Positions 9,186 to 60,012 of a stretch of 64,000 bases of DNA are shown in pieces. A model generated the notes under the pieces. That model saw only the letters and a program-made list of their open reading frames with translations, did no database searches and was not told the origin of the DNA. The position numbers and the translations under genes are program-made. Every line of letters starts with the position of its first letter. Positions within the stretch are counted from its first letter, which is position 1. Source of the DNA: Methylobacterium organophilum (lineage in GTDB: Bacteria > Pseudomonadota > Alphaproteobacteria > Rhizobiales > Beijerinckiaceae). The DNA is taken from the NCBI RefSeq assembly GCF_022179465.1, contig NZ_BPQV01000002.1, positions 248,001 through 312,000 on the forward strand, read 5' to 3'.

Positions 9186-9420
9186 GTTCGCCCCCGCCCG
9201 TTTTTGTTCCGCTCGTGCTGCCGATGCCCTATCGTGAAAGGGGCGATCCGGGCAATCTCCAGTCTCGCTTCGGCCCGTGCCGAGGTGGTCGACGCCTTAA
9301 ATTCGGCCGAAAAACGCGGGACTTCGGACCTCGTGCTGCCCGGGGCGGAGACGGTGCGAGATCGGCGCGGCCTGCGGACGCTCCCAGGTCGCGACGGCCG
9401 GGACTCAGGAAACCGACTGG

Positions 9421-38357: not shown

Positions 38358-38415
38358 TTCCATCGCGAGCCGCCTCTCCCGCGCGGCACGGGGACCGGAC
38401 GCTTCAGGAGCCAGG

Positions 38416-39516: not shown

Positions 39517-39534
39517 CGCGCCGGAGCCGGGGGA

Positions 39535-40182: not shown

Positions 40183-40338
40183 CGCCTCTGCCCGGCGCCG
40201 GAAATCCGCGGCGCCGTCTTTCGACCTGTTCTGGGTGCACCGAGAACCATGGGCGACAGGGCCCCGTTCCGGTCTTCCAGGAGACGGAAAGATCGGTTTC
40301 GGACGGGCCGCGCCTCACGCGCCGCCCCCCAAAACAGA

Positions 40339-40366
40339 GGCGCCCGCCGATCCTTCAGCGGGCGCC
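40339..40366 (-). terminator. Terminator for the 27-residue peptide gene
   Basis: Perfect 9-bp stem GGCGCCCGC (40339-40347) / GCGGGCGCC (40358-40366) with a 10-base loop; on the minus strand it is followed by TCTGTTTTG. It lies about 40 bases past the small-peptide stop. Confidence 0.6.
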
Positions 40367-40406
40367 CGAGATGATCACACCTGTGCGATGCAACAAGATG
40401 AAGTGT

Positions 40407-40490
40407 CTAGTGGAAGACGCCGAAGACCCACAGGAGCAAGATGATCGGCAGCGGAATCCCGATCAGCCACAGCAAGCCACCCTTGAGCAT
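40407..40490 (-). CDS. 27-residue hydrophobic membrane peptide
   Basis: Peptide of 27 residues beginning MLKGGLLWLIGIPLPI and ending WVFGVFH: a single TM helix with a Pro kink and almost no soluble part. AGAGGAAACC just before the ATG is a strong ribosome site, and a terminator follows, so it has the layout of a real transcription unit. Many alphaproteobacteria carry similar tiny hydrophobic proteins; I do not know a named family or role. It may act as a regulator of a larger membrane protein or in stress. Confidence 0.68.
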   Translation of the reverse strand: MLKGGLLWLIGIPLPIILLLWVFGVFH

Positions 40491-40673
40491 GGTTTCCTCT
40501 CTCTCGTTTCGGTCGAGGGCCACGATGCGCCTCTTCGTCAGGAATGACGAACGAGGCCATGAAATCGTTCCCTCGCTCTTGCCCCGCTTCGCACATCATC
40601 ATGTGGATGCTTGAGAGGCCTGACCAAAAATCTTCCTGTCTTATGCTCCGAGCCTACCGTCACACGCATGCGA

Positions 40674-41831
40674 TCAGCTTGCCGCGCCGACCGTATCCGC
40701 CATGCGGGCCTCGCGCTCGCCGAGGGGCCGAGGGTGCCCGACGGTCGTGTCCTTCGCCGTCTGGTGCTCCATCTCCGCGTTCACCTGCGCGCCCAGCAGC
40801 ACGATCGTGGTCGAGATCCAGATCCAGGTCATGAAGCCGATCGCGGCGCCGAGGGACCCGTAGGTCTGATTGTACTTGCCGAAATTGGCGACGTACCACG
40901 AGAACAGCAGGGAACCCGCGAGCCAGAGGAAGGCGGCGAGCATGCCCCCCGGTGTCACCCAGCGCCAGCGCGGCGCGTCCCGGCTCGGGCCGTAGCGGTA
41001 GAGAAGCGCGAGACCGCCCATCACCACCAGGAACAGGACCGGCCAGCGCAGCAGCGCGAGCCACCACGCGTTCTCGCTGAGGCCGATGGTCTGCAGGATG
41101 ATCGGCACCGCGACGATCGAGCCGAGCGCACCGAGGACGAACAGCAGCGCCCCCGCGGTGAAGCCGAGGGAGATCAGATTGAGGATGATGAAGTTCCGCT
41201 TCTCGCGCTCGTTGTAGACGATGTTGAGCGCGTCGAAGACATGCTTCATCCCGCCATTGGCGCTCCAGACCGATAGCCCGACACTGACCAGCAGGGACAG
41301 GCCGAGGGTCGTGTTGCCCTTCTCGTTGAGGCGCTTCACCTGCTCGCCGACGATCTCCAGGGCGCCCGAGGGCAGCACGCCCTGGAGCGAGGCCAGGTTG
41401 TCGTTGATGGTCGAGGCATCGGCGATCAGGCCGTAGAGCGACACCAGCGCCGCGATGGCCGGAAAGATCGCGAGCAGGGCGAAGAAGGTGACCCCGGCCG
41501 AGACCAGCATGAGGCGGTTCTCGCCCACGTCGCGATAGGTGCGCATCGCCACGTCCTTCCAGCCCAGGCGCGGGATCTCCGTGGGGCTCTCGGCGCGGCG
41601 GCCCCGCTCGGGTTCGGACCGTGCCACGTGATGCGCCCGCGCCCCCTCGACGGAGGGAGAGGGCTTGTGTGGGCCCTCGGAGGCGCTTCGGGGCGGTCGG
41701 TGGTCGGCTGGGGCGCGCCGAGGCCGGAACGCGATCCCGATCAGCGCCACGGCGGTCGCCGCGGTCCAGAGCAGGGAACCGGCCCCACTGGGCTCCTGTC
41801 GATCGATGCTGTCCTCTGCCGCGCCGGCCAT
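40674..41831 (-). CDS. YihY/BrkB-family inner membrane protein
   Basis: 385 residues with about six TM segments. Family landmarks: RLMLVSAGVTFFALLAIFPAIAALVSLYGLIAD, LSVWSANGGMKHVFDALNIVYNEREKRNFI, ALLYRYGPSRDAPRWRWVTPGGMLAAFLWLAGSLLFSWYVANFGKYNQTYGSLGAAIGFMTWIWIS, typical YihY/virulence factor BrkB (once mis-called RNase BN). The N-terminal 70 residues and the last 40 are polar. ATG 41831 is chosen over the GTG at 41903 because GAGGAAG sits five bases before it. Transport role presumed, substrate unknown. Confidence 0.88.
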   Translation of the reverse strand: MAGAAEDSIDRQEPSGAGSLLWTAATAVALIGIAFRPRRAPADHRPPRSASEGPHKPSPSVEGARAHHVARSEPERGRRAESPTEIPRLGWKDVAMRTYRDVGENRLMLVSAGVTFFALLAIFPAIAALVSLYGLIADASTINDNLASLQGVLPSGALEIVGEQVKRLNEKGNTTLGLSLLVSVGLSVWSANGGMKHVFDALNIVYNEREKRNFIILNLISLGFTAGALLFVLGALGSIVAVPIILQTIGLSENAWWLALLRWPVLFLVVMGGLALLYRYGPSRDAPRWRWVTPGGMLAAFLWLAGSLLFSWYVANFGKYNQTYGSLGAAIGFMTWIWISTTIVLLGAQVNAEMEHQTAKDTTVGHPRPLGEREARMADTVGAAS

Positions 41832-41934
41832 GGCTTCCTCGGTCACACCTCGTTGCGTCCCATCAACCCGGCTGGCCACGATTTGTTTGCCGCGCGTCGC
41901 CACGCCGATGGCGAGAGCGAGACGCCTGCAAACT

Positions 41935-42118
41935 TGACGATAAAAGGCAGGAACAAAGATCCTCGCCGGGAGCTTTCACCAGCACTTTCTCTGAATTCAA
42001 TTCATTTGATACAGATCAATATCACAGAAATAACATAGGTTTTTATCATAAATCATTTTTATTTTGTCGAGTGTCTTCCCGTGAATTTGTCTGACATCAT
42101 TGGAGACGTCGAGCGCAT
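41935..42118 (+). promoter_or_regulatory. AT-rich leader before the glycoconjugate cluster
   Basis: The bases just before the 12-gene cluster are strikingly A/T-rich (about 41990-42075, with TCATAAATCATTTTTATTTTGTCG), unlike anything in the downstream genes. Ribosome site GGAG is 14 bases before the ATG at 42119. It is the only non-coding stretch before the cluster and the likely promoter or site of nucleoid/regulator binding; no specific motif is identified. Confidence 0.5.
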
Positions 42119-43231
42119 ATGAAAAACCTCGCTCTGATCACAGGAGGGGCCGGCTTCATCGGCCGGCATCTGGCGGGCGCTCTTCTTCGGATAGGGTATC
42201 GGGTCCGCATCCTCGACAGCCTGATCGACCAGGTGCACGGCGATCGGGCCGCGCCCGCCGCCTTCGATCCGGGTGTCGAGTTCGTAGAGGGCGATATCCG
42301 TGACGGAGAAGCCGTGGCCCGCGCGCTCGCCGGGGCGACCCATGTCGTGCACCTCGCCGCCGAGGTCGGCGTCGGCCAGAGCATGTATGCTGTCGAGCGC
42401 TACGTCTCCGTCAACGATTGCGGCACCGCCACCCTGTTCCAGGCGCTGATCGACGCGCCCGTCAAGCGCGTGGTCGTCGCCTCCTCCATGAGCGTCTACG
42501 GCGAGGGGCTCTATCGCACGGACGATGGCGGGATCGTCGAGGACGCGGTCCGCAAGCCGCGCGGACCCGGAGAGCCCTGGGACCCGCCTGACGCGGCCGG
42601 CCGGCCGATGCGGCCCCTGCCGACGCCGGAGAGCAAGCGCCCGGCGCTCGCCTCGGTCTACGCGCTCACCAAGTACATGCAGGAGCGCCTGACCCTGACG
42701 CTCGCCCCCGCCTACGGCATGGAGGGCGTGGCCCTGCGGCTCTGGAACGTCTACGGCCCCGGCCAGGCACTCTCGAATCCCTATACCGGCGTTCTCGCCA
42801 TCTTCGCCGCGCGGCTTCTCAATGGGCAGCCGCCGATGATCTTCGAGGACGGCGCCCAGCGGCGGGACTTCGTCCATGTCGAGGACGTGGCCCGGGCCTT
42901 CGTGCTGGCGCTAGAGCATCCGGCCGCAGCAGGGCAGGTCTACAATGTCGGATCCGGGCAGGACCGGACCGTCGAGGAGGTCGCCCGCCTGCTCGCCCGG
43001 GCGATGGGCCGGGAGGACATCACCCCCCAGATCACGGGCCAGGCGCGGGCCGGCGACATCCGCCACTGCGTCGCGGATATCGGCAAGATCCAGCGTGAGC
43101 TCGGCTACGCGCCGCAGCGCGATTTCGAGCAGGGCCTGACGGAGCTCGCCGCCTGGGTCGCCGAGCAGCAGGCGGTCGACCGCGTGGCCGAGGCCCGCCG
43201 CGAGCTCGAAGCGCGGGGATTGGTGGCGTGA
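42119..43231 (+). CDS. NAD-dependent sugar epimerase, dTDP-rhamnose 4-epimerase-like
   Basis: 370 residues, extended SDR. Cofactor motif TGGAGFIG near residue 8, catalytic SSMSVYGEGLY region, and YALTK (Tyr/Lys pair) near residue 182, with a distinctive insert (EPWDPPDAAGRPMRPLPTPESKRPA) before the active site, seen in WbiB-type dTDP-L-rhamnose 4-epimerases. It ends with the EARRELEARG C-terminal extension common to that group. First gene of the cluster; its stop overlaps the next start (GTGA). It likely makes an unusual 6-deoxy sugar nucleotide, but the substrate cannot be fixed from sequence. Confidence 0.82.
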   Translation: MKNLALITGGAGFIGRHLAGALLRIGYRVRILDSLIDQVHGDRAAPAAFDPGVEFVEGDIRDGEAVARALAGATHVVHLAAEVGVGQSMYAVERYVSVNDCGTATLFQALIDAPVKRVVVASSMSVYGEGLYRTDDGGIVEDAVRKPRGPGEPWDPPDAAGRPMRPLPTPESKRPALASVYALTKYMQERLTLTLAPAYGMEGVALRLWNVYGPGQALSNPYTGVLAIFAARLLNGQPPMIFEDGAQRRDFVHVEDVARAFVLALEHPAAAGQVYNVGSGQDRTVEEVARLLARAMGREDITPQITGQARAGDIRHCVADIGKIQRELGYAPQRDFEQGLTELAAWVAEQQAVDRVAEARRELEARGLVA

Positions 43232-44325
43232 GCGGGGTCCAGACACGTCTCGAGACCCGTCCCGTCCTCGTCACCGGCGGCGCCGGCTTCGTTGGCGCCA
43301 ACCTCGCCGACCGGCTGGCCAGCGAAGGGCGCAGCGTCATCGTCTACGACCTGCTGGCGCGCCCGGGCGTCGAGGCGAACCTCGCTTGGCTCACGGAGCG
43401 ACATGGCAGCCGGATCCAGCCGGTGATCGCGGATATCCGCGACGGCGCCGAGCTCGCCCGGGCGGTGCGCGAAGCCTCCGCCGTGTTCCACTTCGCCGCC
43501 CAGGTCGCGGTCACGACGAGCCTCGTCGCGCCGCGGGAGGACATGGAGGTCAATCTCGGCGGCACCCTGACGCTGCTGGAGGCCCTGCGCGCTCGCGGCG
43601 GCGCGGTGCCGCTCCTCTTCGCCTCGACCAACAAGGTCTATGGCGGCCTGCCCGACGTGGCGCTGGCGCAGGAGGGCGACGCCTATGCCCCCATGGAGCC
43701 CCGCCTGCGGGCGCACGGCATCGGCGAGGACCGGCCCCTGGATTTCCACACGCCCTATGGCTGCTCCAAGGGCGGGGCAGATGCCTATGTCCTCGATTAC
43801 GCCCGCAGCTATGGTTTGCCAACGGTCGTGATGCGGATGAGCTGCATCTACGGCCCGCGCCAGATGGGCAACGAGGATCAGGGCTGGGTCGCCCATTTCC
43901 TGATCCGGGCGCTGCAGGGCAGGCCCGTCACCGTCTACGGCGACGGGCGGCAGGTACGCGACATCCTCCATGTCTCCGATGCGGTGGCCGCCTACCGGGC
44001 CGCGCTGGCGCGGATCGATCAGGTCTCCGGCCATGCCTTCAATCTCGGCGGCGGGCCTGAGAACGCAGTGAGCCTGCGCCGGCTGCTCGCCCATCTCGGC
44101 GCGCTGATCGGCCGGGAGGTCGCGGTCGAGTGGGGCGACTGGCGTCCCGGGGATCAGCGCTACTACGTGTCCGACACCCGCCGCGCCACCGGGGCGCTCG
44201 GGCTCGCGCCGCCGCTCTCCTGGCGGGAGGGCGTGGCGGATCTCGCCGTGTGGCTCTCCGAATGGCTGGGGCAAAGGGAAGAGGCCATACCGGCTCGCGG
44301 GCGTGTGCAGGAGGCGGTGCTATGA
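43228..44325 (+). CDS. NAD-dependent epimerase/dehydratase, CDP-paratose 2-epimerase-like
   Basis: 365 residues, extended SDR. TGGAGFVG near residue 13, FASTNKVYGG (the second catalytic region), YGCSK (Tyr/Lys) near residue 175, and MRMSCIYGPRQMGNEDQGWVAHFLI, the pattern shared with CDP-tyvelose/paratose epimerases. GTG start overlaps the previous stop. With the first gene it gives two sugar-nucleotide enzymes at the head of the cluster. Exact sugar unknown. Confidence 0.8.
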   Translation: MSGVQTRLETRPVLVTGGAGFVGANLADRLASEGRSVIVYDLLARPGVEANLAWLTERHGSRIQPVIADIRDGAELARAVREASAVFHFAAQVAVTTSLVAPREDMEVNLGGTLTLLEALRARGGAVPLLFASTNKVYGGLPDVALAQEGDAYAPMEPRLRAHGIGEDRPLDFHTPYGCSKGGADAYVLDYARSYGLPTVVMRMSCIYGPRQMGNEDQGWVAHFLIRALQGRPVTVYGDGRQVRDILHVSDAVAAYRAALARIDQVSGHAFNLGGGPENAVSLRRLLAHLGALIGREVAVEWGDWRPGDQRYYVSDTRRATGALGLAPPLSWREGVADLAVWLSEWLGQREEAIPARGRVQEAVL

Positions 44326-45614
44326 GGGTCGCCCTCGTCAACCCGCCCTGGGACTACCGCAACAGCATCTATTTCGGCTGCCGCGAACCTCATCTGCCGT
44401 TGGAGCTCGGCTATGCCGCCGCGCTGCTGGAGGCCGCCGGCCACGAGACGCGAATCGTCGATTGCCCTCTCGAAGGCCTGAGCGCCGAGGAGGGCGCGGA
44501 CCGCGTCGCCACCTTCGCCCCCGGCATGACCGTGGTGACGACGGCACCCACCTATCTGTTCTGGCGCTGCGCCCCGCCGGAACTTCGGGTGCCCCGCGCC
44601 TTCCTCGATGGTCTGGGCCTTCGAGGCGGCCGCACGGTTGCGGTCGGCCCGCATGGTTCGGCCACGCCCCGCCCGACCCTCGACAAGCTCGGCTGCGATG
44701 TCGTGGTCCGGGGGGAGTGCGAGGAGATCGTCGCGCAGCTCGCCGATGCCGAAGATCCGCGCGAAGTGCCGGCCCTTGCCTTCCGGGACGGTGAGGCGGT
44801 CGTGGTGACCGGACCGCCCCATGCGGGCCGCTTCACGGACCTGCCGGCGTTGCATTGGCCCGATGCCTGGATCGCCCGGCACCGTCACCACCACCATCGC
44901 TTCGACGCCGCGCCGGACGGCCCCGGCGCGGAGGTCGAGGCCTCGCGCGGGTGCCCCTATACCTGCAGCTTCTGCGCGAAGATCGATTTCCGCGACAAGT
45001 ATCGCCGCCGCGACCTTGGCATCGTCCTCGACGAGATCGAGCATCTGATCGCGCAAGGCGCGACCTATCTCTATTTCGTCGACGAGATCTTCCTGCCGCA
45101 GAAGCCGCTGCTCGAAGCCTTGATCGGGCGGCGCATCCGGTTCGGCATCCAGACCCGGATCGACCTCTGGAAGCCCGACATGCTCGACCTCCTCGGAGCG
45201 TCCGGTTGTGTCTCCATCGAGGCCGGAATCGAGAGCCTGACCGAGGAGGGCAGGGCGGCGCTCGACAAGAAGTGCCGCGCCTCGACCGACGACCTCGCCG
45301 AGCGGCTCATCCATGCCCGCCGCTCGGTGCCCTTCGTGCAGGCGAACCTGATCGCCGTGGCCGGCGACGATCCCGGTCTCGTCGCCGCATGGCGCGATCG
45401 CCTGCGCCGCCAGGGCGTCTGGGCGAACGATCCCGTGCCGCTCTACCCCTATCCGAGCTCGCCCGATTACCGGCGGCTCTGGGGGGAGCCCGACGATACG
45501 GCCTGGGAGCGGGCGCATGCCCATTATCTCGGCCAGTTCGAGCGCTTCAGCGACATCCAGGAGGAACGCCCGCTGCCCCTCCGAGAGCTGGAGGCTGCCT
45601 GCGGATGCCGCTGA
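44322..45614 (+). CDS. B12-binding-type radical SAM protein (TIGR04295-like)
   Basis: 430 residues. The N-terminal 130 residues form a cobalamin-binding-like fold (RVALVNPPW, LELGYAAALLEAAGHETRIVDCPLEGL), but I see no DxHxxG motif. The radical SAM core starts near residue 210 with SRGCPYTCSFCAK (CxxxCxxC), then a Gly-rich SAM patch and GIESLTEEGR. This resembles class B radical SAM methylases and the TIGR04295 family, which I recall from similar glycosyltransferase clusters. It could C-methylate or rearrange a sugar or cyclitol. Start ATG overlaps the preceding stop by 4 bases; the end overlaps the next start by 10. Confidence 0.82.
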   Translation: MRVALVNPPWDYRNSIYFGCREPHLPLELGYAAALLEAAGHETRIVDCPLEGLSAEEGADRVATFAPGMTVVTTAPTYLFWRCAPPELRVPRAFLDGLGLRGGRTVAVGPHGSATPRPTLDKLGCDVVVRGECEEIVAQLADAEDPREVPALAFRDGEAVVVTGPPHAGRFTDLPALHWPDAWIARHRHHHHRFDAAPDGPGAEVEASRGCPYTCSFCAKIDFRDKYRRRDLGIVLDEIEHLIAQGATYLYFVDEIFLPQKPLLEALIGRRIRFGIQTRIDLWKPDMLDLLGASGCVSIEAGIESLTEEGRAALDKKCRASTDDLAERLIHARRSVPFVQANLIAVAGDDPGLVAAWRDRLRRQGVWANDPVPLYPYPSSPDYRRLWGEPDDTAWERAHAHYLGQFERFSDIQEERPLPLRELEAACGCR

Positions 45615-46708
45615 CCTCCCCCTTCATCCTGATGAGCGCCGACGCCCTCGGCGGCGTCTGGCAATACACCCTCGACCTCGCCTCGGGGCTCGGCCGCCGG
45701 GGTGCGCGCGTCGGCATCGCCCTCATGGGGCCGCCGCCCGCGGCGGAGGTGATCGCCCACGCCGAAGCCGAGAGCGGCGCCCGCATCCTCGCCACCGGCC
45801 TGCCCCTCGACTGGACCGCGTCGAGCGCCGCCGAGGTGGAGCGGGCCTCCGCGTCGCTCGCCCGGCTCGCCTGGGCAGGCAGCGCGGATCTCGTCCACCT
45901 GCACAGCCCGGCCCTGGCCCTCGCCTCGTATCCCGCACCGGTCGTGGCGGTCTGCCATTCCTGCGTCGCGACGTGGTGGGCTTCGGTGAATTCGGGGCCG
46001 CTGCCGGCGGATCTGGCCTGGCGGCGGGACCTCGCCGCAGAAGGCTGCCTTCGTGCCGACAGCCTGATCGCGCCGACCCACGCCTTCGCCCGGGCAACGC
46101 AGGCGGCCTATGGCCTGCGCCAGCCGCCCGCGGTGGTGCGCAACGGGCGCCGGGCGCCCGCGATTCCGGGCGACGCGGAGACCGCCGCGCATGTCTTCAC
46201 CGCCGGCCGCCTCTGGGATCCGGCCAAGAATGCTGCAGCGCTGGATCGGATGGCTGCACGCTTGTCCCTTCCTGTCCTCGCCGCCGGTCCTGTCGCGGGG
46301 CCGACCGGCCAGCAGGTCGCGCCGCATACCCTGCGCCTGCTCGGCCGCCTGGACGAGGCGGGCATGGCCCGCGAGCTCGCCCGGCAACCGATCTTCGTGT
46401 CGCTCGCCCGCTACGAGCCCTTCGGCCTCGCCGTTCTCGAGGCGGCGCAGGCGGGCTGCGCTCTGGTGCTCTCCGACATCGAGAGCTTCCGCGAACTCTG
46501 GGACGAAGCGGCTCTGTTCGTGCCGCCGGACGACGACGCGGCCGCGGCCCAGGCCGTGGAGCACCTCGCCGCCGATCCCGCCCGCCGCGCCGCGCTCGGC
46601 CAGGCCGGTCAGACCCGCGCCGCCGCCTACAGCGTCGAGGCGATGGTCGAGGGCGTGACGGCCGTGTTCCGCAGCCTGCGCCCCGCACGCGACGAGGCCG
46701 CGGCATGA
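45605..46708 (+). CDS. GT4-family glycosyltransferase
   Basis: 367 residues, GT-B fold. The N-terminal acceptor domain has LGGVWQYTLDLASGLGRRGARV, typical of GT4; the C-terminal nucleotide-sugar domain has EPFGLAVLEAAQAGCALVLSD, the EX7E motif. The start at 45605 (MPLTSPF) lies inside the end of the radical SAM gene; it is preferred because a longer frame upstream reads through that gene. Overlaps the following CgeB-like gene by 4 bases. Sugar donor unknown. Confidence 0.85.
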   Translation: MPLTSPFILMSADALGGVWQYTLDLASGLGRRGARVGIALMGPPPAAEVIAHAEAESGARILATGLPLDWTASSAAEVERASASLARLAWAGSADLVHLHSPALALASYPAPVVAVCHSCVATWWASVNSGPLPADLAWRRDLAAEGCLRADSLIAPTHAFARATQAAYGLRQPPAVVRNGRRAPAIPGDAETAAHVFTAGRLWDPAKNAAALDRMAARLSLPVLAAGPVAGPTGQQVAPHTLRLLGRLDEAGMARELARQPIFVSLARYEPFGLAVLEAAQAGCALVLSDIESFRELWDEAALFVPPDDDAAAAQAVEHLAADPARRAALGQAGQTRAAAYSVEAMVEGVTAVFRSLRPARDEAAA

Positions 46709-47817
46709 GGATCGTCTATTTCACCCATTCGCTGGCCTCGTGCTGGAACCACGGCAACGCCCATTTCCTACGCGGCGTGCTGCGCGAACTCGGCGCCCTC
46801 GGTCACGGGGTCGAAGCCTGCGAGCCTGAGGAAGCCTGGAGCCGCGAGAACCTTCACCGCGACCACGGTCAGGCCGGGCTCGATGCCTCGCTCGCGGCCT
46901 ATCCGGAGTTGTCGCCGCGCCGCTACCGCACGGTCGAAGCGGCTCTTGAGCGGGCGGAGGGCGCCGATCTCGTCATCGCCCACGAATGGAACGCGCCCGC
47001 CCTGATCGTGGCCCTGGGCAGGGCGCGGGCACGCGGCGCCTTCGGGATCCTGCTGTTCCACGACACCCATCACCGCGCGGTCAGTGCACCCGACGAGATG
47101 CGCCGCTTCGACCTCTCGGCCTATGACGGCGTGCTCGCCTTCGGGCAGGCGCTCGCGGAGGTCTATCGCCGCTGGGGCTGGGGCGGGCGTGCCTTCACCT
47201 GGCACGAGGCCGCGGATACGCGCCTGTTCCGGCCGCCCGACGTGGAGGAGACGCGGGACGGCCTCGTCTGGATCGGCAATTGGGGCGACGGCGAGCGCAC
47301 GCAGGAACTCGAGACATTCCTGTTCCGCCCAGCCTACACCGCCGGCCTCTCCCTGGACATCTACGGCGTGCGCTATCCCGAGGCGGCGCGGGCGACGCTC
47401 GCAACCTACGGCGCGCGCTACCATGGCTGGGCAGCCAACGCAGCCGCGCCCGGCCTGTTCGCGAAGGCCCTCGCCACCGTGCACGTGCCGCGCCGCTTCT
47501 ACGTGGAGGCCCTTCCCGGCATCCCGACGATCCGTGTCTTCGAGGCGCTCGCCTGCGGCTTGCCGCTGGCCAGCGCCCCCTGGACGGATGCGGAGGGGCT
47601 GTTCACGCCGGGCACGGATTACCTCGTCGCCCGGGACGGGGCCGAGATGGAGCGCCACCTGCGCACCCTCCGCGCCGATGCGGAGCTGCGCGCCGCGCTC
47701 GCCGCCCACGGCCTCGCCACGATCCGGGCCCGCCACACCTGCCGGCACCGCGCCGACGAGCTCCTGGCGATCCACGCCGTTCTGAACACGCCCGCCCGCA
47801 TGGAGGCCGCCTCTTGA
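46705..47817 (+). CDS. CgeB-family glycosyltransferase (first of three)
   Basis: 370 residues. It begins RIVYFTHSLASCWNHGNAHFLRGVLRELGALGH, an N-terminal motif repeated with variation in the next two genes, and ends with a GT-B donor domain, GIPTIRVFEALACGLPLASAPWTDAEGLF. CgeB-type proteins act as glycosyltransferases in spore coat or polysaccharide modification. Translationally coupled on both sides (ATGA, TTGA). No signal peptide. Confidence 0.82.
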   Translation: MRIVYFTHSLASCWNHGNAHFLRGVLRELGALGHGVEACEPEEAWSRENLHRDHGQAGLDASLAAYPELSPRRYRTVEAALERAEGADLVIAHEWNAPALIVALGRARARGAFGILLFHDTHHRAVSAPDEMRRFDLSAYDGVLAFGQALAEVYRRWGWGGRAFTWHEAADTRLFRPPDVEETRDGLVWIGNWGDGERTQELETFLFRPAYTAGLSLDIYGVRYPEAARATLATYGARYHGWAANAAAPGLFAKALATVHVPRRFYVEALPGIPTIRVFEALACGLPLASAPWTDAEGLFTPGTDYLVARDGAEMERHLRTLRADAELRAALAAHGLATIRARHTCRHRADELLAIHAVLNTPARMEAAS

Positions 47818-48932
47818 GAATCGCCTTCTACGGCTCCTCGCTGCTCTCCTCCTACTGGAACGGGGCGGCGACCTATTACCGGGGTCTACTCCGCGACCTC
47901 GCCGGGCGGGGCTATCGGATCACCTTCTACGAGCCGGACGCCTTCGAGCGGCAGAGCCACCGCGACATCGATCCACCGGACTGGGCGCAGGTGCGGGTCT
48001 ACGCCGCTACGCCGGAGGCGATGCGGGCCGTCGCCGCCGAGGCGGCGGAGGCGGATGTGGTGGTGAAGGCGAGCGGCGTCGGGGTGTTCGACGACGCGTT
48101 GCTGGAGGGCGTGATCGCCGCCACGCAGCCGCACGCGATCCGCGTCTTCTGGGATGTCGACGCGCCCGCCACCCTGGCCGAGATGCGCGGCGATCCGGGC
48201 CATGCCCTGCACCGGGCCATGCCGGATCTCGACCTCGTCCTGACCTATGGCGGCGGGCCGCCGGTGATCGCCGCCTATGAAGGCTTCGGCGCCCGTGCCT
48301 GCATCCCGGTCTACAACGCCCTCGATCCCGACACCCATCACCCCGTCCCGGCGGATCCGCGCTTTGCCGCCGACCTCGCCTTCCTCGGCAACCGCCTGCC
48401 CGACCGCGAGGCGCGGGTGGAGCAGTTCTTCCTCGTCGCCGCGGCGCGCCTGCCGGAGCGGCGCTTCCTCCTCGGCGGCAGCGGCTGGGAGAGCCGCGGA
48501 TTGCCGCTGAACGTGCGCCATCTCGGCCATGTCTCGACCCGTGACCACAACGCCTTCAACGTCTCCCCGCTCGCGGTGCTCAACATCGCCCGCGAGAGCA
48601 TGGCCGCAATCGGCTATTCGCCCGCCACCCGCGTCTTCGAGGCGGCCGGCGCCGGCGCCTGCCTGATCACCGATGCCTGGGAAGGCCTCGACCTCTTCCT
48701 CAAGGAGGGCGCGGAGGTGCTCGTCGCCCGCGACGGCCGCGATGTCGCCGATCATGTGGCCGCCCTGGATCCGGAGCGCGCCCGCGCCATCGGCGCGGCG
48801 GCCCGCGCCCGCATCGCCGCCGAGCACACCTATGCCCGGCGCGGCGCACAGGTCGACGCGATCCTGAGGGAAGCGGCGGCGCGCAAGCGGGCCGAGCCGG
48901 CGGGCGCCCCGATCCGACGGAGCGTCGCATGA
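47814..48932 (+). CDS. CgeB-family glycosyltransferase (second of three)
   Basis: 372 residues. TTG start at 47814 overlaps the previous stop (TTGA); the first residues RIAFYGSSLLSSYWNGAATYYRGLLRDLAGRGY align with the first CgeB-like protein. The donor domain is GYSPATRVFEAAGAGACLITDAWEGLDLFLKEG. The low-strength TTG start may limit its translation relative to its neighbours. A paralog of the genes at 46705 and 48929, in the same unit. Confidence 0.82.
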   Translation: MRIAFYGSSLLSSYWNGAATYYRGLLRDLAGRGYRITFYEPDAFERQSHRDIDPPDWAQVRVYAATPEAMRAVAAEAAEADVVVKASGVGVFDDALLEGVIAATQPHAIRVFWDVDAPATLAEMRGDPGHALHRAMPDLDLVLTYGGGPPVIAAYEGFGARACIPVYNALDPDTHHPVPADPRFAADLAFLGNRLPDREARVEQFFLVAAARLPERRFLLGGSGWESRGLPLNVRHLGHVSTRDHNAFNVSPLAVLNIARESMAAIGYSPATRVFEAAGAGACLITDAWEGLDLFLKEGAEVLVARDGRDVADHVAALDPERARAIGAAARARIAAEHTYARRGAQVDAILREAAARKRAEPAGAPIRRSVA

Positions 48933-50044
48933 GCGGTTGCTCCCTCCGCCTGGTGGTGCTGGGTCTCAGCCTGTCCTCGTCCTGGGGCAATGGCCACGCC
49001 ACCACCTACCGCGCCCTGCTGAAGGCCTTCGCTGCCCGTGGGCACGAGGTGCTGTTCCTGGAGCGGGACGTGCCCTGGTACGCCGCGCATCGCGATCTTC
49101 CCGAGCCGGATTTCTGCCGGCTCGCCCTCTACGGGGATCTCGACGGCCTCGACGCCCATCGCGACGCCGTCGCGCGGGCCGATGCGGTGATCGTCGGCTC
49201 CTATGTGCCCGAGGGAATCGCCGTCGGGCGGCGCGTGCAGAGTTGGGCGACCGGGGTGCGGGCCTTCTACGACATCGACACGCCGGTGACGCTGGCGGGC
49301 CTCGAGGCCGGCGCCTGCGCCTATCTCGCCCCGGCGCAGATCCGGGACTACGACCTCTATCTCTCCTTCACCGGCGGCCCGACTCTGGAGCGGTTGGAAC
49401 GGCGCTACGGCGCGCCGGCCGCCCGCACCCTCTACTGCTCGGTCGATCCCGAGGCCTATCCCCCCCTGTCCCGCGAGCCCGCCTACGACCTCAGCTATCT
49501 CGGCACCTACAGCCTCGACCGGCAGCCGACCCTGGAGCGGTTGCTGATCGAACCGGCGCGCCGCGCGCCGGACCTGCGCTTCGCGGTGGCCGGGCCGCAA
49601 TACCCGGCGGCGATCGACTGGCCGGCGAACGTCACGCGCATCGAGCACCTGCCTCCGCGGGCGCATCCGGGCTTCTATGCGCAGAGCCGCTACACCCTGA
49701 ACGTGACCCGCGCGGACATGATCGCCGCCGGCTGGAGCCCCAGCGTGCGCCTGTTCGAGGCAGCCGCCTGCGGCACGCCGATCCTCAGCGACCGCTGGGA
49801 CGGCCTGGACGCGATCCTGGCGCCGGGCCGCGAGATCCTTTGCCCGGACACCGCCGAGGCCGTGCTCGCGATCCTGCGGGAGCGACCTGAAGCGGAATGC
49901 CGCCGGCTCGGCGAGGCTGCCCGCCAGGCCGTGCTTGCCCGGCATTCGGCCGCCCAGCGCGCCGCGGAACTCGAAACCCATCTGCGCGAGGCCGCGAACC
50001 GGCGCGCCGCCCCCGAACGCCTCCTTGAAGCGCTCAGCGAGTGA
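48929..50044 (+). CDS. CgeB-family glycosyltransferase (third of three)
   Basis: 371 residues, N-terminus RLVVLGLSLSSSWGNGHATTYRALLKAFAARGH, again the shared SxxW(N/G)GxAxxxR motif; donor domain GWSPSVRLFEAAACGTPILSDRWDGLDAIL. ATG start overlaps the preceding stop by 4 bases. Three tandem paralogs suggest sequential addition of related sugars to one acceptor. Confidence 0.82.
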   Translation: MSGCSLRLVVLGLSLSSSWGNGHATTYRALLKAFAARGHEVLFLERDVPWYAAHRDLPEPDFCRLALYGDLDGLDAHRDAVARADAVIVGSYVPEGIAVGRRVQSWATGVRAFYDIDTPVTLAGLEAGACAYLAPAQIRDYDLYLSFTGGPTLERLERRYGAPAARTLYCSVDPEAYPPLSREPAYDLSYLGTYSLDRQPTLERLLIEPARRAPDLRFAVAGPQYPAAIDWPANVTRIEHLPPRAHPGFYAQSRYTLNVTRADMIAAGWSPSVRLFEAAACGTPILSDRWDGLDAILAPGREILCPDTAEAVLAILRERPEAECRRLGEAARQAVLARHSAAQRAAELETHLREAANRRAAPERLLEALSE

Positions 50045-50055
50045 GGAACCGAGCG

Positions 50056-52183
<2,128 letters not shown>

Positions 52184-52187
<4 letters not shown>

Positions 52188-52783
52188 GGCGCGTCCTGCT
52201 GGTGCGCCACGCGCGCCACGACCGGCTCGGGCGGATCCTGTGCGGGCGCATGCCCGGCGTGTCCCTGAGCGAGGCCGGCCATGCCGAGGCCGAAGCCCTG
52301 GCCGGGGCCCTCGTCGACCGGATCGGCGGCGTCGCGCAGGTTCTGTCGAGCCCGCAGGCCCGCACCCGGGAGACCGCGGCCCCGATCGCGCAGCGGTTCG
52401 CCGTGAGCGTCGAGACGACGGAGGCTCTCGACGAGATCGATTTCGGCGATTGGACGGGCCGGCCGCTTGCCGCGCTCGAGGGCGATCCCGCCTGGACAGA
52501 CTGGAACGCGTCGCGCGCCTCGGCCCGCCCGCCCGGCGGCGAGGGCATGGGTCGGGCCCAGGCCCGGGCAGCGGCGCTCCTCGACCGGCTCGCCGCCCAG
52601 GACGCTCCGCCCGCGATCCTGGTGAGCCATGGCGACGTGATCCGCGCCGTCCTGCTCGGCCTGCTCGGGCTCTCCCTCGACGCCTATGATCGCCTCGTGG
52701 TCGCGCCCGCCTCCTGGAGCGAGCTTGCCCTCTGGCCCGATGGCGGCCGGATCGTGTCCCTCAACGAACGGGTGGCCCCGTGA
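52184..52783 (+). CDS. Histidine phosphatase superfamily protein
   Basis: 199 residues, branch 1 histidine phosphatase. N-terminal LVRHARHD is a variant of the usual LVRHGxT (His10-type nucleophile kept, Gly lost); a second catalytic His in [18 protein letters not shown] and a Glu in [14 protein letters not shown] complete the site. Placed right after the inositol phosphate synthase (4-base overlap), so it is a candidate for removing the inositol phosphate or a sugar phosphate. No inositol monophosphatase-like gene is present in the cluster. Confidence 0.82.
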
Positions 52784-53571
52784 TCGCCACCGACGCGGAT
52801 ATCACCGGTCTCCGCCGGGAGGCCGATGCCCTCGGGCCGTGGTTCCACAACATCGATCTCGGCGAAGGCATCTGGACCGCGCCGGACCATTTCCTCGGCG
52901 ACTATCCCGGGGTGAAATGGCGGCGCTTCGCCCAGGCGCTCCCCGCCGACCTCACCGGGAAGTCCGTGCTCGATATCGGCTGCAACGGGGGCTTCTACGC
53001 GATCGAGATGAAGCGCCGCGGGGCTGCCCGGGTCCTCGGCCTCGATTCCGACGAGCGCTACCTCGCCCAGGGCCGATTCGCAGCGCGCCGCCTCGGCCAT
53101 GACATCGAGTTCCGCAATCTCTCGGTCTACGATGTCGGACGCCTGGGCGAGCGCTTCGACGTGGTGCTGTTCATGGGGGTGCTCTACCATCTGCGCCATC
53201 CGCTGCTCGCCCTCGACCTGATCCACGAACACGTGGCCGGCGATCTCCTCGTCTTCCAGTCGATGCTGCGCGGCTCGCCCGGCATCGAGCCGATCGCGGG
53301 CGACTACGACTTCTGGGACATCGATGCCTTCGAGCGGCCGGGCTACCCGCGCCTGCATTTCGTCGAGCACGCCTATGCCCACGACTGCACCAACTGGTGG
53401 ATCCCGAACCGGGCCGGGATCGAGGCGATGCTGCGCTCCAGCGGATTCGCGATCGAGAGCCGACCGGAGGCGGAAGTCTATCTCTGCCGGCGGGTGGCGG
53501 CCCCCTATGGCGCGGAGGCGGTCTATCCGGCCCGGGCGCGGCAGGGATCCGACGGCGAGGAGGGCCGATGA
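52780..53571 (+). CDS. SAM-dependent methyltransferase (TIGR04290-like)
   Basis: 263 residues, class I fold: motif I LDIGCNGGFYAIEMKRRGA, then LGLDSDERYLAQGRFAARRLGHDIEF, and a C-terminal region with LYHLRHPLLALDLIHEHVAGDLLVFQSMLRG. The pattern FHNIDLGEGIWTAPDHFLGDYP at the start is seen in a family I recall as TIGR04290. GTG start overlaps the phosphatase stop. Likely O-methylates the sugar or cyclitol product; it could equally act on a lipid. Confidence 0.82.
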   Translation: MIATDADITGLRREADALGPWFHNIDLGEGIWTAPDHFLGDYPGVKWRRFAQALPADLTGKSVLDIGCNGGFYAIEMKRRGAARVLGLDSDERYLAQGRFAARRLGHDIEFRNLSVYDVGRLGERFDVVLFMGVLYHLRHPLLALDLIHEHVAGDLLVFQSMLRGSPGIEPIAGDYDFWDIDAFERPGYPRLHFVEHAYAHDCTNWWIPNRAGIEAMLRSSGFAIESRPEAEVYLCRRVAAPYGAEAVYPARARQGSDGEEGR

Positions 53572-54506
53572 TCGAAGCGGTGATGCTCTGGAACGAGCCC
53601 AACAACAAGTCGCACTGGGACCCCGTCATCGACCCCGACTGGTTCCTGTTCGGGGAGATGGTGAAGGAGGCGTCGCGGGCGATCCGAGGGGAGGCGCCGG
53701 ACCTGCCGCAGGTGCTCGGCGGCATCTCGCCGATCGACCCGCACTTCATCCGGCGCATGGAGGCGCAGGGCATCCTCGACGGGCTCGACGCCGTGGCGGT
53801 CCACGGTTTCCCCCTCGACTGGAATCTCTGGCAGATCCACGAATGGCCGGCCAAGATCGCCGAGATCCAGGCCGTCACGCCCCTGCCGGTCTGGGTCTCC
53901 GAGGTCGGCGTGTCGAGCTTCGGTGCCGAGGAGGTGCAGGCCTGGGGCTGCCGGCGCACCGCCGAGTTGCTGGCGGGCGCGGCTCCCCGCATCCACTGGT
54001 ACAGCCTCTACGACCTGCCGCGGGAATGGGAAGCCACCACCCGCCACAAGGAGGCGGAGGGCTCCTCCTATTACCGCCACTTCCACATGGGCCTGCTGCG
54101 CGAGGACGGCACGCCGAAGCTCGCTCTCGAGGAATTCGCCCGCCATACGCCGGATTTCGGCCTGTGCCAGTGGTTCCACTTCGAGGATCACCGGCTCGAC
54201 GAGGCGGTCGCCTGGATGAGGCGCCTCGGGGTCACCCATCTGCGCACCGGGTTGTCCTGGGCCGACAGCTTCCGGCCCGATGCCCTCGACTGGTTCGACC
54301 GCCAGATGGCGGCACTGGCGGATTTCGCGGTCACGGTGACCTTCTGCTTCACGCCCGAGCACCGGGGCATCGCGGCTCATCACACCAGCGCGCCGCTCGT
54401 GCGCGAGGAATTCGCCGCCTTCTGCGCGGAGATGGTGCGGCGCTATGCTGGCCGCTCGGCGATCCGTGCGGCCCCTGTGCCGGTTCCGGAAATGCCGGCC
54501 CTCTGA
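53568..54506 (+). CDS. Glycoside-hydrolase-like (GH39/clan A type) protein, apparently circularly permuted
   Basis: 312 residues. It opens directly with the acid/base strand (MLWNEPNN, Glu10) and has the nucleophile strand at WVSEVGVSSFG (Glu112), then WYSLYDLPREWE and GLLREDGTPKLALEEF, which normally ends a clan-A barrel. Instead of stopping, the protein goes on with LDEAVAWMRRLGVTHLRTGLSWADSF and FAVTVTFCFTPEH, which resemble strands 1-3, and ends at AEMVRRYAG, where strand 4 would normally follow. So the barrel order looks permuted (4-8 then 1-3). It overlaps the methyltransferase by 4 bases and is the last gene. Substrate unknown. Confidence 0.72.
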   Translation: MIEAVMLWNEPNNKSHWDPVIDPDWFLFGEMVKEASRAIRGEAPDLPQVLGGISPIDPHFIRRMEAQGILDGLDAVAVHGFPLDWNLWQIHEWPAKIAEIQAVTPLPVWVSEVGVSSFGAEEVQAWGCRRTAELLAGAAPRIHWYSLYDLPREWEATTRHKEAEGSSYYRHFHMGLLREDGTPKLALEEFARHTPDFGLCQWFHFEDHRLDEAVAWMRRLGVTHLRTGLSWADSFRPDALDWFDRQMAALADFAVTVTFCFTPEHRGIAAHHTSAPLVREEFAAFCAEMVRRYAGRSAIRAAPVPVPEMPAL

Positions 54507-54511
54507 CGAGA

Positions 54512-54547
54512 AGGCCGCCGGGATCATGAAAGCGATCCCGGCGGCCT
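54512..54547. terminator. Strong hairpin ending the cluster
   Basis: Perfect 14-bp stem AGGCCGCCGGGATC (54512-54525) / GATCCCGGCGGCCT (54534-54547) with an 8-base loop, five bases after the last stop. The following CTCTCGTTCGT is only partly T-rich. It also faces the end of truB (minus), so it can act for both directions. Confidence 0.75.
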
Positions 54548-54574
54548 CTCGTTCGTAGCGTGCCGTAACGGCCG

Positions 54575-55722: not shown

Positions 55723-56151
55723 TCAAACGTCGGAGGCGCTCTCCGGTTCGTCACCCGCCTCGGGGTGATCGAGGTCGCGCTGCACCTTGTCGCTCCGCAG
55801 GAGCGCGTCGATGCGGGCGGCCTCGTCGAAGGTCTCGTCCCGGCGGAAACGCAGCTCGGGCGCGTATTTCAGGTTCACGCGCCGGGCCACCTCCTGGCGC
55901 AGGACGCGCTTGTTGCGCTCCAGCGCCTGGATCACCGGCGTCTCGTCCTGGCCGCCGAGGGGCATCACGTAGGCGGTGGCGAGCTTGAGGTCCGGCGACA
56001 TCCGCACCTCGGGGATGGTGATGACGTGCGAGGCGATCACCGGATCCTGGAGGTCGCCCCGCTGAAGCACCTCGGCCAGGGCGTGGCGCACGAGCTCGGC
56101 CACGCGCTGCTGGCGCTGCGAGGGACCGGACGGGGTCTGCTTCTGGGCCAT
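55723..56151 (-). CDS. rbfA: Ribosome-binding factor A
   Basis: 142 residues, KH-like fold: [48 protein letters not shown], and [35 protein letters not shown], the RbfA signature. Matures the 30S ribosomal subunit by 16S rRNA 5' processing. Acidic C-terminal tail ([13 protein letters not shown]) is common in this group. Lies between infB and truB. Confidence 0.95.
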
Positions 56152-56208
56152 GGTCTATCTGAGAATCGGATCGATGTCGGGAGCCTCGCGACTCCAATGC
56201 CAACGGAA

Positions 56209-56236
56209 CGGGGCCGCAGCTTACGCCGCGGCCCCG
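56209..56236. repeat. Hairpin between infB and rbfA
   Basis: 9-bp perfect stem CGGGGCCGC (56209-56217) / GCGGCCCCG (56228-56236), 10-base loop, in the 112-base infB-rbfA spacer. No T-run; may be a processing site or partial attenuator within the operon. Confidence 0.4.
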
Positions 56237-56263
56237 CGCCGAGAAGAAACGGGTGGGCGCCGC

Positions 56264-59197
56264 TCAGAGCGTGCGGCGGATCTCCTCGACCCGATAGCAC
56301 TCGATGAAGTCGCCCGCCCGCATGTCCTGATAATTCTCGAAGGACATGCCACACTCGTAGCCGGCGATGACTTCCTTGGCGTCGTCCTTGAGGCGCTTGA
56401 GCTGGGCCAGCTTGCCCTCGTGGATCACCACGTCGTTGCGCAGCAGGCGGACATGGGCGCCGCGCTGGACCACGCCCTCCATGACGCGGCAACCGGCGAT
56501 CTTGCCCACCTTCGACACGTCGAAGATCTGCAGGATCTGCGCCTCGCCCAAGCGCTCCTCGCGGAGCGTCGGCGGCAGCATGCCCGACAGCGTGGCTTTG
56601 ATATCGTCCACGAGGTCGTAGATGATGCTGTAGTAGCGCAGCTCGGTGCCGTCGCGCTCGGCCGCGTTGCGCGCTTCCTTGTGGGCGCGCACGTTGAAGC
56701 CGATCACCACCGCCTTCGAGGCGTTGGCGAGCGTGATGTCGGACTCGGTGATGCCGCCCACGCCCGAGAGCAGGATGCGGACACCGACCTCGTCGTTGCC
56801 CAGCGCGCCGAGCGCGCCGACGATCGCCTCGACGGAGCCCTGCACGTCGCCCTTGATGACGACCGGCAGCTCCTTGCGGCCGCTGCCCTCGCGGGCCTCG
56901 CGCATCATGTCGACGAGCGAGCGGTTGGCGCCGCCGGTGCGGGCGGTCAGGCGGTCGCGCTTGATGCGGGCGCGGTACTCGGTGACCTCGCGGGCGCGGG
57001 CCTCGTTCGGCACCACGATCACGCGATCGCCGGCATCCGGCGTGCCGTTGAAGCCGAGCACCTCGACGGGAACGGACGGACCCGCATAGGGGACGTGCTC
57101 GCCCTTGTCGTCGATGAGGGCGCGGATGCGGCCCCACTCGGCGCCGGCCACGACAATGTCGCCGGCGAACAGCGTGCCACGCTGGACCAGGACCGTGGCC
57201 ACGGGGCCGCGGCCGCGGTCGAGCTGAGCCTCGATCACCGTGCCTTCGCCGTCGCGCTTCTCGTTGGCGCGCAGGTTCATGATCTCGGCCTGGAGCTGCA
57301 GGCCCTCCAGCAGCTCGGGCAAGCCCTCGCCGGTCTTGGCCGAGACCTCGAATTCGAGGGTCTCGCCGCCCATCGACTCCACCTGGATGTCGTGCTGCAG
57401 GAGCTCCGTGCGCACCCGCTGCGGGTTCGCGTCCGGCTTGTCGATCTTGTTGATGGCGATGATCATCGGCACGCCCGCGGCCTTGGCGTGCTGAATCGCC
57501 TCCACCGTCTGGGGCATGACGCCGTCATCGGCCGCCACCACGATCACGACGATGTCCGTCACCTTGGCGCCGCGGGCGCGCATCGAGGTGAAGGCCGCGT
57601 GGCCAGGGGTGTCGATGAAGGTGATGAGGTCGCCCGAGGGCGCCGCCACCTGGTAGGCGCCGATATGCTGGGTGATGCCGCCGGCCTCGCCCTCGACCAC
57701 GTTCGCCTTGCGGATCGCGTCGAGCAGCGAAGTCTTGCCGTGGTCGACGTGGCCCATGATCGTGACGACCGGCGGACGGGGATCGAGATCCTCCTCCAGA
57801 TCCGGCTCGTCGGAGGTGAGGCCCTCCTCGACGTCGGATTCGGCAACGCGGCGCACCGTGTGGCCGAGCTCCTCGGCGATGAGCTGCGCCGTGTCCGAAT
57901 CGATCACGTCGGTGATCTTGTGGATCTGGCCCTGCTTCATCAGCAGACGGATCACGTCCACCGCCCGCTCCGACATGCGGTTGGCGAGCTCCTGGATGGT
58001 GATCGTCTCGGGAATGGTCACCTCGCGCGAGATCTTCTCCTTCGGCTCCTCGTTGCGGTGTCCGCTCATCCGCTGCTGGCGGCGGCGGAAGGAGGCCACG
58101 GAGCGCGTGCGCTCCTCCTCGCCCGCCGTGGCATTGGCGATGGTGAGACGGCCGCGGTTGCGGTCGCCGCCCGGCGACTTCGGGGTCTTCGGCGGCGTGA
58201 TGATCTTGAGCGGCATGCCGGGACGGCGGATCACCCGCTTGGTCTCGGTCTCGTCATCCGGGAGCGCGGCGGCGCTGCGCGGCCCGGGCCGGGCGCCGGC
58301 CGCATCGGACGGCCGGGCGACCGCCGCGGTCGTGGCGGTCGTGGCCGCGGGCTTCTCCGGCTCGGGGGCCGGACGGGCCATGAAGTTGAGGTCGCGCGGC
58401 TTGCGTGGATCGGCGGTCAGCACGCGGCGCGGCTCGGCCGGCGGGGCCGGGCGCGGCACCGGAGCGGCGGGACGGGCCGGAGCCGCCGCCGGACGAGCCG
58501 ACGCGGCGACAGGCCGCTGGGGCGCGGCGGGAGCGGCCGGGCGGGCCGGGGCCACAGGCGCGGCCGGACGCGGAGCCACGGGAGCCGCCGCAGCGGGAGC
58601 GGGGGCGGCAGGCGCGGGGGCGGCAGGCACGGGGGAGACGGCCGGCGGCGCGGCGGCGGCCGCAGCCTCCTCCTCGGCGCGGCGGCGCGATTCCTCGGCG
58701 GCGCGGCGGCGGTGCTCGTCGTCCTGGCGGCGACGCTCCTCCTCCTCGCGGCGACGGGCCTCGGCGGCCTCCCGCTCGCGGCGGTCGGCTTCCTCACGCT
58801 CGCGGCGGGCGCGGATCTCCGCCTCCGCCTTGGCGCGGGCGTCGGCCTCGCGGCGCTGCGCATCGGCCAGGGCGTTGGCGCGGGCATCCCGCTCCTGATC
58901 GCTCAGGGTGCGCAGCACGACGCCCGAGGCGGTACGGCCCGCCGGCCGTGTCGCCGTCGAGGGCGCAGAGGGCGGGGCAGGGCGATTCGCGGGGGCGGGT
59001 GGGGCCTCGCGCGGCGCGACCGTGCCCGGCGCAGCGCCGATGGTGCGGCGCTTCACCGTTTCGACCACGACGGACTTGGACCGGCCGTGGGAGAAGCTCT
59101 GACGCACAGTACCCTGCTCCACCGGCCGCTTCAGCGTCAGCGGCTTGGCGGGGGCACGATTCTGCGTCTTGTCGCCCGTGTTGTTCGTATCGCTCAT
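56264..59197 (-). CDS. infB: Translation initiation factor IF-2
   Basis: 977 residues. N-terminal third is Ala/Pro/Arg/Glu-rich low-complexity (alternating AP-rich and EER-rich runs to about residue 320), typical of long alphaproteobacterial IF-2. GTPase core: G1 [12 protein letters not shown] (about 481-492), DTPGH (G3), [10 protein letters not shown] (G4), then domain II and C-terminal tRNA-binding regions ([34 protein letters not shown]). It positions initiator tRNA on the 30S. Its ATG directly follows the ylxR stop (TGA-ATG), so these are coupled. Hairpin between it and rbfA. Confidence 0.97.
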
Positions 59198-59989: not shown

Positions 59990-60012
59990 GATTCCCGAGC
60001 GTCCTTCCGATC

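Follow-up and report, generated by a model that had tools for sequence, protein, structure and literature searches.

A conserved twelve-gene cluster of Methylobacterium organophilum with a circularly permuted GH-A-like glycosidase and a possible inositol-headed glycan product

A 64,000-nucleotide stretch of Methylobacterium organophilum contig NZ_BPQV01000002.1 (the window) carries twelve chained genes, g1 to g12, at positions 42119–54506 (Table 1). The cluster is conserved in Alphaproteobacteria and common to many soil and plant bacteria. Its last gene, g12, is at the sequence level a natural circular permutant of a GH-A-like glycosidase. An initial annotation had assigned the cluster to an inositol-linked, methylated glycoconjugate. 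The permuted glycosidase, its tie to the inositol-3-phosphate synthase Ino1 (g9), the alternation of the radical S-adenosylmethionine (SAM) protein g3 with two dehydrogenases, and the stress promoters are new beyond that reading. With slightly less than even confidence, we propose that the cluster encodes a cytosolic pathway under stress control, which makes a short, O-methylated oligosaccharide with inositol at its head and in which the glycosidase trims or recycles the product.

Circular permutation of g12 and its tie to Ino1

g12 starts with a NEP motif, and the part of the domain that normally comes first sits at its end. Residues 2–190 would correspond to strands b4–b8 and residues 195–295 to b1–b3. 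In some relatives, a glycoside hydrolase (GH) domain homologous to g12 is fused to the N-terminus of g2. Sixteen open reading frames (ORFs) give a fused-type match, of which 11 hold both halves, all in normal order. The other five (L008, L106, L130, L131, L132) hold one half only, owing to the ends of the stretches or to the frame. We regard the order of the fused form as normal because of its comparison with g12, that of PslG through g12, and the position of the NEP motif in mid-domain. All 39 standalone sequences (38 loci plus the window), on the other hand, give two profile matches in swapped order. Rotating g12 at residue 195, the best point, merged the two partial matches into one and raised the single-domain score from 107.6 to 152.7 bits, while the best of 300 shuffled sequences reached 3.0 bits. 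In profile-profile comparison, the rotated order formed one continuous match (E 1.1e-44), while the native order reached 6.4e-31.

The same arrangement is seen against PslG (PDB 4zn2/5bx9), which we take to be a GH39 enzyme of clan GH-A. Residues 22–130 and 132–300 of PslG match residues 198–295 and 3–163 of the 312-residue g12. This profile match is weak (whole-sequence E 2.9e-5; the 22–130 piece alone scores 5.4 bits). In clan GH-A, the catalytic glutamates follow b4 (the NEP motif) and b7. The putative catalytic pair of g12, E10 and E112, is conserved without exception in the 30 standalone GH sequences compared, and its motifs align with WNEPN and WSTEWG of PslG. Thus g12 has the two glutamates of the clan but not its canonical strand order. 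Natural circular permutation of a barrel glycosidase is also seen in GH70 compared with GH13 and in other permuted glycosidases, as far as titles and the openings of abstracts describe them; these sources named no permuted clan GH-A enzyme. GH70 and GH13 are alpha-glucan enzymes of another clan.

We consider it very improbable that g12 is not an active permuted enzyme but a non-catalytic domain or a remnant fragment. That explanation draws on the family searches: no Pfam glycosyl hydrolase family exceeded its cut-off on g12 (the best, PF11790, gave 13 bits in native and 15 bits in rotated order, with a cut-off of 21). A decaying fragment is hard to reconcile with 29 homologues that are 65–89% identical to g12 over the full length, with two invariant glutamates, with the swapped order of every standalone sequence and with the single continuous match obtained once the order is restored. 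The profile of the fused GH form found nothing in the PDB at 0.01. Two technical explanations were rejected. A wrong start hiding an N-terminus does not fit, as the upstream frame overlaps g11 and the methionine is in the same place in 28 of 29 homologues (threonine in L099). An alignment artefact does not fit either, as the fused relatives and PslG each give the swapped order.

The form of the GH domain goes together with the presence of Ino1. Among the 91 loci counted, namely those with short-chain dehydrogenase/reductase (SDR) and glycosyltransferase (GT) genes, the GH form is standalone in 46 and fused in 15; no locus has both, and 30 have neither in the stretch. Of the 46 loci with the standalone form, 45 have Ino1, and the remaining one (L066) is cut at a contig end; none of the 15 with the fused form has it. 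At the genome level, an Ino1 match at 1e-5 was absent from all nine genomes with the fused form and present in four of four control genomes. None of the nine has a standalone g12. On a tree of 78 rows under 97% identity, the GH form changed at least five times. Five independent pairs lie on well-supported branches; in 4.7 of them on average, ino1 changes along with the GH form, and in none does it go the opposite way, with a sign-test floor of 0.06 for five pairs.

As for Ino1 itself, g9 reaches 513 bits against the mycothiol-type family TIGR03450, under its cut-off of 638. It fits the broad inositol-3-phosphate synthase family (PF01658, 121 bits) and matches residues 15–367 of 1gr0, presumably the Mycobacterium tuberculosis enzyme. 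Of 59 loci whose g9 match exceeds 200 bits, 54 contain the motif GDDxKSQxGAT.

The genome of M. organophilum has a second, distant Ino1 homologue, 27% identical to g9 over 193 residues. It lies in L155 (G000:C10:79000-96000) at 8186–9595 on the minus strand, near a YcaO gene and a methyltransferase, and possibly belongs to a separate cyclitol or peptide pathway. The genome G709 also has a second, distant homologue. Inositol supply for catabolism was considered and rejected, with no IolE match in the M. organophilum genome.

Radical SAM alternation, distribution and promoter motifs

g3 and g11 score above the cut-offs of TIGR04295 and TIGR04290, two uncharacterised NCBIfam families. The g3 motif GCP[YF]xCxFC is found in all 91 loci with a g3 match above 500 bits, our own genome included. 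Across the 91 loci with SDR and GT genes, 81 have the radical SAM gene g3 and 10 have a pair consisting of a zinc dehydrogenase and a Gfo/Idh/MocA oxidoreductase; none has both and none has neither. This trait changed at least five times on the tree of 78 loci, with four independent pairs on well-supported branches. Because the zinc dehydrogenase and the Gfo/Idh/MocA oxidoreductase replace g3, the g3 step would resemble oxidation-reduction at a carbinol carbon. We therefore hypothesize that g3 performs a redox or epimerisation step. The initial annotation had the product modified by radical SAM, which the alternation leaves uncertain.

A competing explanation is that g3 is a C-methyltransferase and that loci with g3 and loci with the dehydrogenase pair make different products, rather than reaching one product by equivalent steps. 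We doubt this on balance, while giving it real weight. Several weak NCBIfam matches of g3 are B12-dependent radical SAM methyltransferases, and its best PDB match, 6wte (E 2.7e-7), is a B12 methyltransferase. Outside its own family, however, the strongest NCBIfam match of g3 is the cyclase BchE (85 bits), which outranks the methylase HpnR (53 bits). Two different products would also sit uneasily with repeated changes on the tree that leave no locus with both systems or with neither.

A GTDB scan with g3 returned 63 loci, by title mostly from Methylobacterium/Methylorubrum, Azospirillum, Acetobacteraceae or their kin, and including two contigs labelled Gemmatimonadaceae. Fourteen of the 63 hold all twelve genes in a single order and on one strand; contig ends truncate many of the rest. 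In Azospirillum and several Acetobacteraceae, the genes form two divergent blocks, g12–g9 and g1–g7. TIGR04295 exceeds its cut-off in 10 of 398 genomes of a phylum sample (ours included) and in one of five other genomes of the genus, so the distribution is patchy. TIGR04290 exceeds its cut-off in 16 of 385 genomes of a class sample, again including ours.

The initial annotation took homologues without co-location in relatives as a refutation, and the relatives do not show this. Within about 10 kb on either side of TIGR04290 (less at contig ends), the 15 other genomes all carry one or more additional cluster genes, and the GT block is present in 12. The three without a nearby GT block have g6 elsewhere in the genome. 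TIGR04295 is present somewhere in 13 of these 15 genomes, which agrees with the statement in the initial annotation that the two families occur together. In G131, the dehydrogenase pair adjoins the cluster. In G518 (83% complete), no TIGR04295 match was found, nor a dehydrogenase pair in the 13.5 kb examined. Seven genomes lack g12 near the g1–g5 locus; six have it elsewhere, and the seventh, that of L090, has none.

The suggestion of a conserved but undescribed system also held up: the cluster is co-inherited, and open-licence PMC full text gave no description of the cluster, its variants, the permuted glycosidase or the regulation. The phrase 'rhizo-twelve', which we believe is used for such a system, was not found in that text. 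As further observations, Bradyrhizobium sp. 195 has two diverged copies of the cluster (L036, L037) on two plasmids typed as conjugative, with an extra GT, a nucleotidyltransferase and a metalloenzyme annotated as phosphopentomutase. Cluster genes also lie on two contigs titled Gemmatimonadaceae (L079, L096), through transfer or mis-binning.

The promoter regions of relatives point to the general stress response. Passages of PMC3892343 document the EcfG consensus GGAAC-N16-CGTT for R. etli, and the Sphingomonas targets listed in a part of PMC6599016 carry motifs of this type. GGAAC N15-17 [CG]GTT is found upstream of g1 in 19 of 72 stretches, where doublet shuffles predict 0.39. The corresponding counts are 6 of 40 (0.16 expected) upstream of g9 and 3 of 10 (0.055 expected) upstream of the zinc dehydrogenase, with related strains counted apart throughout. 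Many of these motifs lie 54–90 nt ahead of the expected start. In loci from the sampled genomes, the motif precedes g9 in 8 of 15, five of the eight from one genus and two from another, and g1 in 2 of 15. The motifs are therefore enriched in relatives, not universal. Our own genome has NepR matches, and a GGAAC at -169 is common to the window and Methylorubrum relatives without a strict EcfG -10 element. Genes annotated near the cluster in relatives, listed without an enrichment test, include those for DUF892, manganese catalase, DUF1003, Ku/LigD, treZ and extracytoplasmic function (ECF) sigma factors. A literature search made without locus tags, over partial texts, gave no usable expression evidence for the S. 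meliloti or R. etli homologues.

Layout of the cluster and its surroundings

Starts and stops confirm twelve chained genes on one strand. When g12 starts at ATG 53568, all eleven junctions overlap, ten by 4 nt and one, between g3 and g4 (ATG 45605), by 10 nt. The initial annotation had counted ten overlaps, one of them of 10 bases, which stand, and an 11-base gap before g12, which corresponds to the alternative start at ATG 53583. In 15 collinear relatives, the g11/g12 start options give a 4-nt overlap in 11, an 8-nt overlap in two and only a gap in two; the script picks the start nearest to the previous stop and so leans to overlaps, and many other junctions of the relatives are unresolved. 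The gene classes were all assigned correctly at the outset, and 'hydrolase-like' for the last gene can now be sharpened to a permuted GH-A-like glycosidase.

Table 1. Features of the cluster in the window
Feature	Position	Strand	Basis
g1, SDR, GalE-like nucleoside diphosphate (NDP)-sugar epimerase	42119..43231	+	PF01370 186 bits; best PDB kin epimerases/dehydratases
g2, SDR, closest solved kin CDP-tyvelose 2-epimerase	43228..44325	+	1orr E 2.6e-74
g3, B12-binding radical SAM protein TIGR04295	44322..45614	+	718.4 bits, cut-off 400
g4, GT4 glycosyltransferase	45605..46708	+	PF13439/PF00534
g5, CgeB-like glycosyltransferase	46705..47817	+	PF13524 119 bits
g6, CgeB-like glycosyltransferase, TTG start	47814..48932	+	PF13524 131 bits
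g7, CgeB-like glycosyltransferase	48929..50044	+	PF13524 131 bits
g8, UDP-glucuronate decarboxylase (UDP-xylose synthase)-like SDR	50041..51105	+	4gll E 5e-109
g9, inositol-3-phosphate synthase (Ino1), actinobacterial type	51102..52187	+	1gr0 E 1.5e-140
g10, histidine phosphatase	52184..52783	+	PF00300 144 bits
g11, methyltransferase TIGR04290	52780..53571	+	371.4 bits, cut-off 300
g12, putative circularly permuted GH-A-like glycosidase, 312 aa	53568..54506	+	profile comparisons; no family match
AT-rich leader with GGAAC (-35-like) at about -169	41950..42118	+	GC scan, motif scan
Terminal hairpin, no T-run	54507..54560	+	folding against shuffles

Both flanking elements noted earlier are borne out. 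The leader at 41980–42089 has 30% GC, compared with 71% in the cluster; among 6389 segments of 110 nt, taken every 10 nt, just 13 have less. The closing hairpin has a minimum free energy of -43.4 kcal/mol (z -6.8), which none of 200 shuffles equalled. The absence of a polymer export gene likewise stands: neither the cluster nor eight neighbouring ORFs scanned contain an export gene or Wzx/Wzy or ABC polysaccharide parts (flippase or transporter, polymerase, initiating transferase, lipid-carrier enzyme).

Upstream, 37851–41903 carries DUF892, patatin-like and YihY/BrkB-like genes on the minus strand; DUF892 is also near the Sphingobium cluster (L103). The downstream neighbour is truB, on the minus strand. 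A plus-strand ORF at 56150–60226 (1358 aa, no family match) is probably the shadow of a 977-aa minus-strand ORF at 56264–59197, perhaps infB judging by its position after truB. The lowest GC of the window, down to 20% in 110 nt, is at 1501–1650.

Proposed pathway, alternatives and meaning

By established biochemistry, inositol 3-phosphate is the product of Ino1 and UDP-xylose that of UDP-glucuronate decarboxylase, while NDP-sugars are formed by SDR epimerases and consumed by GTs. On this background we infer a pathway whose every enzymatic step, product, solubility and role are predictions. g9 would make inositol phosphate and g10 would take the phosphate off. The GT4 enzyme g4 and the CgeB-like transferases g5–g7 would then add sugars to give a short glycan on inositol, supplied with NDP-sugars by g8 (UDP-xylose) and the epimerases g1 and g2. 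A redox or epimerisation step would be carried out by g3, or in other lineages by the zinc dehydrogenase and the Gfo/Idh/MocA oxidoreductase. g11 would O-methylate the glycan. As an active glycosidase, g12 would trim or recycle it, like the hydrolase of the mycobacterial methylmannose polysaccharide (MMP) system; at the sequence level, it is a natural permutant of the domain that lineages without Ino1 carry in normal order, fused to g2. The initial idea of a glycan system with an inositol branch and methylation thus persists in part, since inositol is not universal: the synthase is missing from nine of nine genomes with the fused GH.

Known systems resemble the cluster in part. TIGR04295 and TIGR04290 include g3 and g11, but these names cover two proteins and not the whole cluster. 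The enzymes of the MMP cluster presumably belong to other protein families than those here. According to the abstract of PMC9883506, that cluster shares with ours a methyltransferase, a glycosyltransferase and a dedicated glycosidase, and its hydrolase makes primers for new chains; its product, however, is a polymer of 3-O-methylmannose, and neither an inositol synthase nor a radical SAM protein is mentioned in the abstract.

The initial annotation favoured a glycolipid or polysaccharide, which the cluster does not bear out, with no lipid-linked initiating enzyme, flippase or polymerase seen in it. A soluble intracellular oligosaccharide would fit better. The cluster could still make a surface glycolipid or polysaccharide that is exported by genes elsewhere in the genome, which we regard as unlikely. 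Its SDR and GT content would suit such a product. Pyruvyltransferases are associated with surface glycans, and pyruvyltransferase and F420-hydrogenase-beta-like genes adjoin the Sinorhizobium, Paracoccus and Ensifer copies (L101, L104, L109); in Xanthomonas sacchari, the cluster is preceded by msbA and lpxK. Against this, the cluster has no initiating phosphoglycosyltransferase, flippase, polymerase or acyltransferase, and no export gene recurs in the other annotated neighbourhoods, for which the gene table is incomplete. More improbable still is a mycothiol-like inositol-glycoside cofactor or osmolyte, in which the GT4 enzyme would act on inositol phosphate, g10 would dephosphorylate and the other GTs would decorate. 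Mycothiol biosynthesis uses an inositol-3-phosphate synthase of related type, a GT4 enzyme and a phosphatase, as in this cluster; among solved structures 1gr0 is the closest to Ino1, and g4 is weakly similar to MshA (E 5e-5). However, the amidase, cysteine ligase and acetyltransferase genes of mycothiol biosynthesis are not in the cluster, which has instead three extra GTs, SDRs and a GH. Four GTs exceed the need of such a cofactor, and the GT block is kept in lineages without Ino1.

Several points weigh against the proposal of a stress-regulated, inositol-headed oligosaccharide. Some relatives do add a pyruvyltransferase near the cluster. The function given to g3 is a guess. The second Ino1 homologue in our own genome means that inositol could serve another use. 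No strict EcfG site (GGAAC N15-18 [CG]GTT) is present in the window upstream of the cluster, at 41701–42118. Seven loci have Ino1 and neither GH form in the stretch, the part of those genomes that was searched, and a search of the Parvularcula genome (L090) gave no GH match at E 1e-5. G709 has a standalone g12, Ino1 and a fused GH domain; in this genome, the only one seen with both forms, the fused domain (L156 5835-7781) has lost both catalytic glutamate motifs, as expected if one active enzyme suffices. The locus sample has limits of its own. Most loci were found by the radical SAM query, and the 81:10 ratio reflects this mode of sampling. Nine further loci were dropped ahead of the count of 91 because their stretches lack g1/g2 or g5/g6: L054, L060, L072, L096, L098, L121, L128, L129 and L134. 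Over its 13.5 kb, L134 has no g3 and no dehydrogenase pair. L110–L119 were left out by number, including L111 (S. meliloti Rm41), which has g12, Ino1 and the dehydrogenase pair. The 91 loci were not de-duplicated (L061/L124 and L035/L131 are apparently the same contigs, judging by length), and the tree was built by a quick method with long branches flagged.

More broadly, there may be a class of stress-induced cytosolic glycans in Alphaproteobacteria with two chemotypes, inositol-headed and inositol-free, a speculative extension that we hold to be rather unlikely as a whole. In such a class, gain or loss of Ino1 would be tied to exchange of the permuted and normal-order glycosidases, and the B12 radical SAM protein and the two-dehydrogenase pair would be interchangeable for one epimerisation of a sugar or cyclitol. 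If true, a single system would provide natural experiments on two matters, circular permutation and the interchange of radical and hydride chemistry.

The analysis offers a testable function for two NCBIfam families that have none. With a permutant and a normal-order version available from one pathway, it would be possible to measure what permutation does to a functioning enzyme, and the repeated alternation of g3 with the dehydrogenases hints at a possible role for this B12 radical SAM enzyme. Should the glycan protect against stress, this would help to explain how plant-associated bacteria, including Sinorhizobium and Methylobacterium, survive drying and salt.

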